Source of the DNA: Stappia sp. MMSF_3263
GTDB lineage: Bacteria; Pseudomonadota; Alphaproteobacteria; Rhizobiales; Stappiaceae
Length of the DNA stretch: 64,000 bases
Direction of reading: 5' to 3'
Assembly (NCBI RefSeq): GCF_030733745.1
Contig: NZ_JASHIK010000004.1
Location: forward strand, 186,001-250,000
Under the pieces are notes generated by a model. The model saw only the letters and a list, made by a program, of their open reading frames with translations, ran no database searches and had not been told where the DNA came from. Below are positions 54,909 to 59,537 of the stretch, piece after piece; the first letter of the stretch is position 1, and each line of letters starts with the position of its first letter. Both the position numbers and the translations under genes were made by a program.

Positions 54909-56932
<2,024 letters not shown>

Positions 56933-57054
56933 TCATGCTGGAACCGATACGTCACCGTGGCGGTTTCCTGGCTGGACGCCGCTGTCGGGCCGGCTCCCGC
57001 TGAGCTTTTGGGAAAAGATAACAAAGCGTTTGACGAAGCAGGCCGGATTAGGCT

Positions 57055-57081
57055 TTGACATGACGTCGGGCAGCCTATATG
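57055..57081 (+). promoter_or_regulatory. Possible promoter of the FYDLN-acid gene
   Basis: TTGACA (57055-57060) with TATATG (57076-57081), 15-base spacer, slightly short. It lies 38 bases before the GTG start. Confidence 0.4.
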
Positions 57082-57119
57082 CGAACGCCCGATTATCGAA
57101 AAAGACAAGGGTTGGAACC

Positions 57120-57515
57120 GTGGCGAAACCCGAACTTGGCACCAAGCGGCTGTGCGGCGGCTGCGGCGCGAAATACTATGACCTCAATCGCGATCCGATC
57201 ACCTGCCCGAAATGCGGCACCGTGTTCGTCCTGTCTCAGGCGATGCGTGTGAAGGCGGCGGCAAAGGCGGCTGCGGTCGAGGAAGACGAGGACGACGAGG
57301 TCGAGGTCGAGGACGAAGGCGCCGAGCTGGTCAGCCTCGAGGAAGCCGACGCCGAAGCCGAAGGCGATGCGGCCGTTTCGGTTGATGCCGACGACGACGA
57401 GGAACTCGACGACGACGATTCGGCCGATGACGTCTTCATTGACGATGAGGACGAGGAAGACGACGACGTTCCCGGCATCGTGGTCGAGCGCGACGACGAG
57501 GACACGGATCGCTGA
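57120..57515 (+). CDS. TIGR02300-type FYDLN-acid zinc-ribbon protein
   Basis: Alphaproteobacterial protein of unknown function, 131 residues. The N-terminal 45 residues form a zinc ribbon (KRLCGGCGAKYYDLNRDPITCPKCGTVF) with two CxxC pairs and the name-giving YDLN motif. The remainder is extremely acidic, with runs of Asp and Glu. The start is GTG 57120, giving AKPELGTKRL as in relatives. The frame is open far upstream but without conserved sequence. A role linked to RNA polymerase or ribosomes has been guessed for such acid-tailed ribbons but is not established. Confidence 0.88.
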   Translation: MAKPELGTKRLCGGCGAKYYDLNRDPITCPKCGTVFVLSQAMRVKAAAKAAAVEEDEDDEVEVEDEGAELVSLEEADAEAEGDAAVSVDADDDEELDDDDSADDVFIDDEDEEDDDVPGIVVERDDEDTDR

Positions 57516-57741: not shown

Positions 57742-57817
<76 letters not shown>

Positions 57818-58179
57818 GTCTTCCCCTTACGTGTTTCGATCTCCACATGAATTGAGTGCTTTTGTGGTTCCGGGGGCTCGCCTGGCGGAACCGGCGCCGG
57901 CGCCTGCATGGCTTCGCGATAGTGGCGGTTCGACACGTTTCCGCGAGCAGTGCCTGCGGTCTGTCCACCGAGACGACCTTTCAGGCAGCATGGTCTTTGC
58001 CCCTGCAATTGGCGCAGACGCGTCTGACAGGCTGTACCAAGTGACGAGATGCGCGCTGCGCTTCATCCCGTGGCTGCCGGCGAAGACTTGTCGAGGTGCA
58101 TGTTCCCTCGGGGTGCTTTCGCCTTTGACGCACCAGAGCGGCACGCTTTAGTTGTTTTCGCATCGGCGGAGGCAACTCA
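57818..58179. other. Gap between tRNA-Ala and the radical SAM gene
   Basis: No gene is supported in these 362 bases. The last 60 bases hold the radical SAM promoter (58125-58153). A short GC palindrome (GGCGCCGGCGCC near 57897) is seen. I found no repeated copy of the tRNA 3' end here or up to 59690. Confidence 0.5.
58125..58153 (+). promoter_or_regulatory. Promoter of the radical SAM/peptide locus
   Basis: TTGACG (58125-58130), 17-base spacer, TTAGTT (58148-58153), predicting a start about 20 bases before the ATG. It indicates the locus is transcribed independently of the tRNA. Confidence 0.5.
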
Positions 58180-59325
58180 ATGTATCCAGGGCACGCGACC
58201 GACTATCTCCATATCCTGGTGGTGAAGGTCATCCGGTCATGCAACCTCCGCTGCAGATACTGCTACTATATCAATGATGATACGCGCGATTACGGGTCGT
58301 CCATGAGCGTCGAGACGGTCACGGCCCTGTACGAGCGCTACCGCGACTACCTCTCCGGGCTCGGCCGGGAAGGAGCGATCGTCTGGCATGGGGGAGAGCC
58401 GCTCATGCTTGGCCATGCGCGCTTCGCCAGGTTCATGGATCTGCAAGAAGAAACCGGCTTGGCACCGTTCATTCACAACAGGCTGCAAACCAACGCCTTG
58501 CTGATCGACGACGCATGGATCGACTTCCTGCACCGCTATGACATCGGCATCGGGGTGAGCATCGATACCGACCAGGCCTCCCACGATGCCAACAGGGTGA
58601 CGCCGAAAGGCGAGGGAACGTATGTCCAGACGGTGGCGGCGCTGAACCGGCTCCGCGAGGCTGGAATCGGTACAGGCGTCTTGAGTGTCGCTGCCGGATC
58701 GGTCGATGGACGGCACGCGATTTCGTCGCTGCGCTCGCTCGGTGTCTCCAGTGCCGACATTCTTTTGCCAATGACAAACAATGCAAGGCAGAAGAACGCC
58801 GACACGGCGGTAGATCTCGACGCCTTGCCCGATTTCCTGGTCGATGCCTTTCGCGAGTGGGTGAAGGGCGACGACCCGTCAATGCGCATTCGGCTTTTTT
58901 CTTCCATGATCCTGCAGGCTTTCGGTCGTCGCACGACGTTCCTTGGTACCGGTGGGGCGGACATGAGTTCCCTGGCGGTTGTCGAAACGGACGGCTCCCT
59001 TTGCATGGACACCGAATACAGCCAGCTGGAGCGCTTCCGGATTGCTGGTGGCTACAGCACCGGTCTCAATGTGAAGGATGACGATTTCACGTTTGCCCGC
59101 GCCGAGACGCTGATCAAGGCCTTCGTTTCGCAGGTCGGCGGAGACCGGCTGCCGACGGCCTGCAAGAGCTGCGAGGTCGCCGCCGTGTGCGGCGGCGGGC
59201 ATCCCGGCTCGCGATACGACGACGCGGACGACTCCCACGATCATCCAAGTGCCCATTGCATGGCGCTGTACAGGCTTGGCCAGGAAACCCTGTCCTATTT
59301 GAAGAACCCGCACCCGTATCTTTGA
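58180..59325 (+). CDS. Radical SAM/SPASM peptide maturase, cyclophane-type RiPP candidate
   Basis: A 381-residue radical S-adenosylmethionine enzyme. The [4Fe-4S]-SAM motif CNLRCRYC (Cys21, 25, 28) opens the barrel, followed by WHGGEPLM, the glycine-rich SAM contact. The C terminus is a SPASM-type region for auxiliary clusters: Cys275 in SLCMDTEY, then Cys328 and Cys331 (CKSC), Cys337 in VCGGGHPGSRY and Cys360. That CxxC...CGGGxPxxRY...C layout resembles FxsB/GrrM/XyeB maturases, which join side chains within ribosomal peptides. GGAGGCAAC precedes the ATG. A 65-residue peptide gene starts 14 bases after the stop and is the presumed substrate. No transporter or protease is adjacent. Confidence 0.87.
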   Translation: MYPGHATDYLHILVVKVIRSCNLRCRYCYYINDDTRDYGSSMSVETVTALYERYRDYLSGLGREGAIVWHGGEPLMLGHARFARFMDLQEETGLAPFIHNRLQTNALLIDDAWIDFLHRYDIGIGVSIDTDQASHDANRVTPKGEGTYVQTVAALNRLREAGIGTGVLSVAAGSVDGRHAISSLRSLGVSSADILLPMTNNARQKNADTAVDLDALPDFLVDAFREWVKGDDPSMRIRLFSSMILQAFGRRTTFLGTGGADMSSLAVVETDGSLCMDTEYSQLERFRIAGGYSTGLNVKDDDFTFARAETLIKAFVSQVGGDRLPTACKSCEVAAVCGGGHPGSRYDDADDSHDHPSAHCMALYRLGQETLSYLKNPHPYL

Positions 59326-59339
59326 GAGAGGAATTTGCG

Positions 59340-59537
59340 ATGAGCGAAAATTCGGGAAAGACGGTCAAGGTCAAATTCGAAGTCGAAATCCAGGGTGTGA
59401 ACGAAGAGCTTCACGGCCGCCTCATGGCGGTCCACGAGGCCGGCGACCTGACGAACATGGTCAAAAGCATTCTCAACGAGGCCGATAACGATTCCTATAC
59501 AAAGGTCATCTGGGGACAGTGGCAGCAGTTCGGCTAG
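59340..59537 (+). CDS. Candidate RiPP precursor peptide with W-G-Q-W-Q-Q-F-G tail
   Basis: A 65-residue peptide, start ATG 59340 with AGAGAGGAA upstream, only 14 bases after the radical SAM stop. Residues 1-50 are charged and could form a strand then helices (KVKFEVEIQGV, LMAVHEAGDLTNMVKSIL), consistent with a recognition leader. The last residues, 53-65, switch to YTKVIWGQWQQFG. The aromatic-X-Gln triplets W58-G-Q60 and W61-Q-Q63, plus F64, match the aromatic-X-X substrate layout of three-residue cyclophane enzymes. There is no GG cleavage motif or signal peptide. I do not recognise a named precursor family; its role as maturase substrate is inference from adjacency and composition. Confidence 0.75.
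   Translation: MSENSGKTVKVKFEVEIQGVNEELHGRLMAVHEAGDLTNMVKSILNEADNDSYTKVIWGQWQQFG

Follow-up and report, generated by a model that had tools for sequence, protein, structure and literature searches.

In Stappia sp. MMSF_3263, a gene for a radical SAM/SPASM peptide maturase is followed by a gene for a short peptide, and the pair is, on balance, best explained as a minimal triceptide-type RiPP unit in which two adjacent Trp-x-Gln rings, W58-Q60 and W61-Q63, would be formed in the peptide. The class feature of triceptides is a C-C cross-link from residue i to residue i+2 (reviewed in PMC11002830). The features of such systems that are present here include the CxxxCxxC core of the enzyme, its SPASM cysteines and an adjacent precursor with aromatic-x-x triplets (WGQ-WQQ, in all three genomes that carry the pair). 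The kind of pathway is already known, but neither the branch to which the maturase belongs nor the family of the peptide has a name.

The two genes lie on the forward strand of the stretch of DNA that was analysed (the window), which comprises 64,000 nucleotides of contig NZ_JASHIK010000004.1. The maturase gene (58180..59325) encodes a protein of 381 amino acids and was assigned from NCBIfam, PDB and Foldseek matches and from alignment. A spacer of 14 bases separates it from the precursor gene (59340..59537), whose assignment draws on its retention in three genomes, on dN/dS and on a low-confidence AlphaFold2 model. The product of the precursor gene is 65 amino acids long and reads MSENSGKTVKVKFEVEIQGVNEELHGRLMAVHEAGDLTNMVKSILNEADNDSYTKVI followed by WGQWQQFG. 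The coordinates, gene lengths, spacer and C-terminal WGQWQQFG of the initial annotation proved exact to the base on rechecking. The enzyme gene is preceded by the ribosome-binding site GGAGG (58168..58172, forward strand). A purine-rich stretch, GAGAGAGG, lies ahead of the peptide start, and the purine-rich GAGAGAGGA (59324..59332, forward strand) probably serves the precursor gene as its ribosome-binding site. A possible promoter, TTTGAC-17-TTTAGT (58124..58152, forward strand), was read from three aligned upstream stretches, the matching place in the other two genomes being TTTGAA ... TACAAT. This candidate is absent from the output of a consensus scan, and BLAST homology between the genomes starts only at 58166, which is 3' of it. 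Upstream of the pair is tRNA-Ala(GGC) (57742..57817, forward strand; ARAGORN), which belongs to the context rather than to the pathway. Just upstream of the tRNA (56712-57515) is a gene whose translation reads as a zinc-ribbon-like protein ending in a strongly acidic tail of Asp and Glu, and downstream of the pair is a gene on the opposite strand that reads as a methyl-accepting chemotaxis protein. No exporter or protease was recognised beside the pair among its neighbours in the window, in agreement with what had been stated before.

The pair is also found in two other Stappia genomes (G004 and G010), so that 3 of the 14 Stappia genomes have it. The MMSF_3263 enzyme is 86% and 83% identical to its counterparts, and the peptide is 77% and 74% identical. 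Among the three genomes the enzyme has a dN/dS of 0.075-0.132 and the peptide one of 0.11-0.19 (dS 0.66-1.25), as calculated with two estimators, one of which failed for some pairs. Both genes are under purifying selection and, judged from sequence comparison, the pair is not a chance open reading frame. Of 87 family genomes searched with a profile of the peptide, three gave strong matches (E 1e-45 to 6e-44), namely the three with a close enzyme. The one weak extra match (G044, E 0.0014) is inside a 509-residue open frame and spans model positions 4-46, with the core outside. The initial annotation had proposed a check of peptide homologues; all three pairs keep the W-x-Q-W-x-Q core, and the peptide travels with the enzyme.

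Searches with the enzyme covered 101 relatives, 61 of them among the 87 family genomes. Some match at E ≤ 0.001 was present in 50 of the 101, identity was at least 83% in three genomes, and the next enzyme by E-value is 32% identical. The precursor profile matched only its own genome among 385 class genomes, and the precursor had no match in plasmids. Enzyme matches occurred in 41 plasmid records, all below 60% identity and at most 33% among the matches listed, and in 14 phage records at up to about 29% identity; a viral enzyme scan gave one partial match (37%, residues 15-76). A DNA pattern for WGQWQQ had 94 matches in viral contigs, which were treated as chance; the open reading frame ends within 5 residues past the motif in 7 of them, and their leaders look unrelated by eye. 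The enzyme profile was run on overlapping sets of 385 class, 398 phylum and 397 order genomes, with matches reported only to E 1e-20 (class) or 1e-30 (phylum and order), and the scan of genome contigs used exact 8-residue patterns, which reach close relatives only. The pair has so far been found only in one genus, Stappia, and pairs at intermediate distance beyond these searches may exist.

The enzyme has the CxxxCxxC motif at Cys21, Cys25 and Cys28 in all three genomes, and it matches the Pfam Radical_SAM family (PF04055) with 61.8 bits (cut-off 29.5). The SPASM auxiliary-cluster cysteines, Cys328, Cys331, Cys337 and Cys360 (Cys-x2-Cys-x5-Cys...Cys), align with those of relatives, and both sets of cysteines are where the initial annotation had placed them. 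A PADLOC match to viperin was put down to the shared radical SAM core. The best NCBIfam models are, in order, YhhB, FxsB, sulfatase maturase, DynA, DarW, AmcB and XyeB, five of these top seven being cyclophane or dynobactin maturases. The enzyme scores below the cut-off in all of the best 25 of 75 matched families, with 190.3 bits for YhhB (NF041707; cut-off 445), 179.1 for FxsB (TIGR04269; cut-off 370), 115.4 for XyeB (TIGR04496; cut-off 450) and 98.2 for GrrM (TIGR04261; cut-off 310). The FxsB, XyeB and GrrM cyclophane maturases belong to the same enzyme group as the Stappia enzyme, which matches their models over nearly the full length, all three cut-offs lying above its scores. GrrM/OscB systems have a glycine-rich repeat precursor for which the Stappia peptide offers no counterpart, no such repeat being visible in its 65 residues. 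The loci of the best maturase model (YhhB/YhhA, NF041707/NF041705) are likewise short and have a precursor with C-terminal aromatic-x-x triplets; the peptide gene is downstream in Stappia, whereas it is upstream in five of six YhhA-type loci and downstream in one (L033).

Of the solved structures, ChlB is nearest to the enzyme by sequence (E 3.2e-32, PDB search). The AlphaFold2 model of the enzyme has a pLDDT of 80.4 and a pTM of 0.84 from 17 alignment rows, with pLDDT below 50 at residues 1-6, 30-36, 200-204 and 256-260. When this model was compared with known folds by Foldseek, ChlB again came first (E 2.2e-25, TM 0.81), with anSMEcpe next. A title among the references of PMC12636437 calls ChlB a 'radical SAM multiple cyclophane synthase'. 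Like the Stappia enzyme, ChlB (PDB 9gm3, 9gmc) has a radical SAM core and one SPASM cysteine set at matching places, the two being 26% identical over the fold match, and according to the entry titles its structure was solved with the leader of its precursor. ChlB is described as a radical SAM domain fused to a HEXXH domain (PMC12636437); the latter is absent from the Stappia enzyme, and the SLDG, LLPD and DLDVLK stretches that are kept in ChlB are changed in it. The earlier reading of the enzyme as a cyclophane maturase is supported in that most of its best matches, whether by structure, by fold or by family, are enzymes that form cyclophanes.

The predicted core of the precursor, W58-G-Q-W61-Q-Q-F-G (59511..59534, forward strand), consists of two adjacent Trp-x-Gln triplets, the putative sites of cross-linking, at the extreme C-terminus. 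IWGQWQQ is invariant in all three genomes, while some Gly and Gln codons of the core change silently between them. This conservation is thin evidence, as three natural variants are known. The leader is conserved as well (KTVKVKFEVEI...), with predicted helices at residues 22-34 and 37-47, and the AlphaFold2 model of the peptide alone (pLDDT 65.7) weakly suggests a strand-helix-helix-strand arrangement. No NCBIfam precursor model, including those for YhhA and XyeA, matched the window peptide, which bears out the remark that it belongs to no named precursor family; the G004 peptide had one stray match (12.7 bits, cut-off 310). Alignment of the leader to those of YhhA and GGF-repeat precursors with hhalign gave probabilities of 0.2 and 0.1 per cent, a Pfam Sod_Cu match fell below the cut-off, and a PDB sequence search with the precursor returned nothing under E 0.8. 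Literature searches found the core string in no paper and no paper with two of the terms XyeB, GrrM, FxsB and three-residue cyclophane, and the word Stappia was absent among the matches listed.

One point against the triceptide reading is the ring partner. Arg, Asn, Asp, Ser and Ala are the partners named in the available text of the triceptide review (PMC11002830), from which Gln is missing, and a Lys partner appears in PMC9055067. Also against this reading are the 21-33% identity of the enzyme to other enzymes, the private stem of 2.24 on which it stands in a tree, its departures from near-invariant residues of relatives and the leader comparison, in which homology to YhhA or the GGF-repeat precursors was not detected. 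Aromatic-x-polar triplets do adjoin relatives, however, including the WVN of WVNSFAKW in a peptide that resembles XyeA (19.5 bits, cut-off 33), the HRHNR in which YhhA-type peptides end, and Y-x-Q in a second Stappia precursor. This last belongs to a system in G006 and G010 with a XyeB-like enzyme (L004; 234 bits, cut-off 450), and its peptide (L004:2748-2975, reverse strand; L060), which no NCBIfam precursor model fits, has Y-G-Q, Y-T-Q, [FY]-H-D-Q and Y-N-Q and keeps an aromatic residue where Phe and Tyr swap. Aromatic-x-Gln triplets recur, to judge from their sequences, in two unrelated precursors of one genus, and this recurrence is the best support for the suggestion that Gln can be a ring partner. 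Some relatives of the same order have precursors with GGFRRGGF repeats. The maturases of L034 and L037 adjoin open reading frames with repeats of the GGNFVSAP kind, the L034 repeat being broken by unread positions. Plasmids of Calothrix, Gloeobacter and Polymorphobacter carry maturases about 31-33% identical to the Stappia enzyme with unnamed small open reading frames adjoining, the Gloeobacter maturase being followed by ABC transporter genes.

By analogy with ChlB, no separate RRE domain would be needed for the maturase to recognise its peptide by the N-terminal part. The CxxxCxxC cluster would cleave SAM to give a 5'-deoxyadenosyl radical, which is predicted to abstract a hydrogen from the beta carbon of both Gln60 and Gln63. 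The resulting Gln carbon radical would add to the indole of Trp58 or Trp61, respectively, and the extra electron would exit through the SPASM cluster. Each event would yield one three-residue ring with a loss of 2 Da, so that two rings would correspond to a loss of 4 Da. Residue 64 and Gly65 would remain as a short tail, and removal of the leader and export would presumably be carried out by host functions encoded outside the locus.

Alternatively, the enzyme could make a different ring, either a single cross-link or one of other spacing such as W58-W61 or Trp to i+3, in which case the mass would fall by 2 Da or the ring would be of unexpected size. Dynobactin contains a Trp-Asn link from i to i+3 (PMC11002830), the DynA model ranks fourth among the NCBIfam matches with 133 bits, and the loop with the family's acid differs from that of relatives. 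W-x-Q occurs twice in exact register, however, residue 64 is variable, which disfavours a W61-to-64 link, and the DynA score is below its cut-off of 450. A different ring is unlikely, though it deserves to be taken seriously.

Departures of the enzyme from its relatives bear on a further alternative, which is that WGQWQQ undergoes another modification, such as epimerisation, dehydrogenation, or a C-O or C-N link to Gln. The three Stappia enzymes were compared with 20 relatives; of the 10 of these that were scanned, four score above a cyclophane cut-off (GrrM, YhhB twice and XyeB). In 13 alignment columns the trio has something other than the residue found in 75% or more of the relatives. These include Thr130 (Gly in 20 of 20), Met198 (Asp in 16), Thr278, which adjoins Asp277 (Asp in 18), Ser344 (His in 15, Asn in 4), His355 (Asn in 18) and His359 (Tyr in 17). 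The trio also shares an extra cysteine, Cys275, near the position of the family's acid. Two alignments place the loop at about residues 275-286 differently, so that any assignment of the residue that replaces the acid is tentative. The trio keeps the conserved residue in 29 of the 33 columns at which 90% or more of the relatives agree. Departures at near-invariant positions suggest that the enzyme may do other chemistry, and the replaced acid and glycine positions, the extra cysteine and the precedent of rotapeptides, in which Thr and Gln are joined by a C-O link (PMC9055067), all favour another modification. Against it stand ChlB, the closest structure and a cyclophane synthase, and the nearest HMMs, which mostly represent such enzymes as well; it is rather improbable. 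Within the triceptide reading, a more far-reaching proposal is put forward tentatively: the pair could represent a Stappia-specific triceptide class with Gln as partner, a deeply diverged maturase (the acid of the family's catalytic loop shifted or replaced at D277/T278, with Cys275 extra and the SxDG and LPD motifs changed) and two adjacent W-x-Q rings, aromatic-x-Gln having also arisen in the second, unrelated precursor.

The initial annotation had likened the core to that of darobactin, whose minimum is darA plus darE (PMC9055067). The two systems do share a minimum unit of precursor and maturase and a Trp-rich core, and a daropeptide-type bicycle (one ether and one C-C link) on W-x-x-W-x-x-F could be imagined from the two Trp and the Phe near the C-terminus of a peptide from such a small locus. 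The darobactin core is WNWxKxF, however, whereas that of the Stappia peptides is WGQWQQ[FL]G, with neither W-x-W nor W-x-W-x-[KR], and the DarE model scores 92.2 bits against a cut-off of 650. The analogy was dropped, and the bicycle is very unlikely. The weight that had been placed on Phe64 was misplaced; a darobactin-like role for it is unlikely because residue 64 is Phe in MMSF_3263 and Leu in the other two genomes. The claim of a new two-gene RiPP type was right about the two-gene unit, homology being confined to the pair, and overstated its newness, given the darA/darE precedent (PMC9055067).

It is likewise very unlikely that the enzyme is an anaerobic sulfatase maturase-like protein and that the small open reading frame encodes an unrelated protein. 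The corresponding model (TIGR03942) is third-best with 169 bits, and anSMEcpe follows ChlB in the fold comparison. That score is well below the cut-off of 349.45, however, and the second-cluster (Aux-I) cysteines of four sulfatase-maturase rows are absent at the aligned places of the Stappia enzyme. In addition, no sulfatase was recognised among the neighbours inspected, and the small open reading frame travels with the enzyme. In a tree of 28 enzymes, which left out DarE, DynA and ChlB, the four sulfatase maturases are grouped by themselves (100/99). The Stappia trio, which shares 21-33% identity with the other 25 enzymes in the alignment, falls with FxsB, YhhB and HEXXH-linked enzymes into a group of 17 rows at a weak fork (88/79) that is drawn open, so that its placement is unsure. 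The true GrrM row joined the sulfatase maturases (90/85), possibly as a long-branch artefact, and chemistries are therefore not cleanly separated; the tree is support for the triceptide reading, not proof.

Between MMSF_3263 and the other two genomes, BLAST homology covers window positions 58166-59537 only and the flanks differ, so that the conserved unit is two genes. The pair is at one site in MMSF_3263 (G000) and at another that G004 and G010 share, with a gene for an outer-membrane beta-barrel protein on one side and a glutathione S-transferase gene about 0.6 kb past the peptide. The G004 neighbours with Pfam matches are the outer-membrane beta-barrel protein, a short-chain dehydrogenase, the glutathione S-transferase and a DUF1176 protein. 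In the roughly 0.6 kb after the G004 peptide (L059:10346-10955), neither of two frames tried gave a Pfam match; this stretch is common to G004, G010 and G011, and its reading appears to switch frame. The same site is found without the pair in G006, where the flank matches are 21 bases apart, and in MMSF_3263 itself, where they are 191 bases apart. In G011 (C2:444500-447000), the shared upstream stretch is followed by a decayed start of the enzyme gene and then by the far flank. The first 70 bases of this relic are in one match with the flank and a further piece is 68.5% identical (E 5e-4), while the rest of the enzyme gene and the peptide were untraceable by BLAST. Because of the empty sites and the relic, the pair is dispensable, and at least one loss appears to have occurred. 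Decay in G011 does not make the pair itself a degenerate, non-functional leftover, which is scarcely credible for three intact copies with dN/dS of 0.075-0.19. The presence of the pair in 3 of 14 Stappia genomes, alongside the decayed remnant in another, fits a peptide for competition or signalling that its host can do without.

The MMSF_3263 pair sits in a variable interval that extends from tRNA-Ala(GGC), its left edge in the genus comparison, to the chemotaxis gene. Both flanks are on one contig within 50 kb in 7 of the 14 genus genomes, the other seven being not comparable. The interval holds this pair in MMSF_3263, about 0.65 kb in G001, 13-30 kb in G002, G005, G008 and G012, and about 45 kb in G003 (C35:283300-330000), where a serine-recombinase-like gene adjoins tRNA-Ala. 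From a reading of translations, the G003 interval also holds restriction-modification-like and helicase-like genes. A reading of the MMSF_3263 interval as a mobile cassette was rejected and no island is claimed, since the interval shows no integrase and a search for a direct repeat of the tRNA end found none. A 22-nt inverted repeat around the pair (77%) was judged chance-like.

The pair is a self-contained two-gene test case for Gln as a cyclophane partner, and it tests whether a maturase without several near-invariant residues keeps its ring-forming chemistry. If the triceptide reading is true, two adjacent rings within eight C-terminal residues would suit enzyme engineering, with Phe and Leu as natural tail variants and no third conserved gene. 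The rules for genome mining would then widen beyond the Asn, Asp, Arg, Ser and Ala partners named in the available text of PMC11002830, or the Lys partner of PMC9055067.
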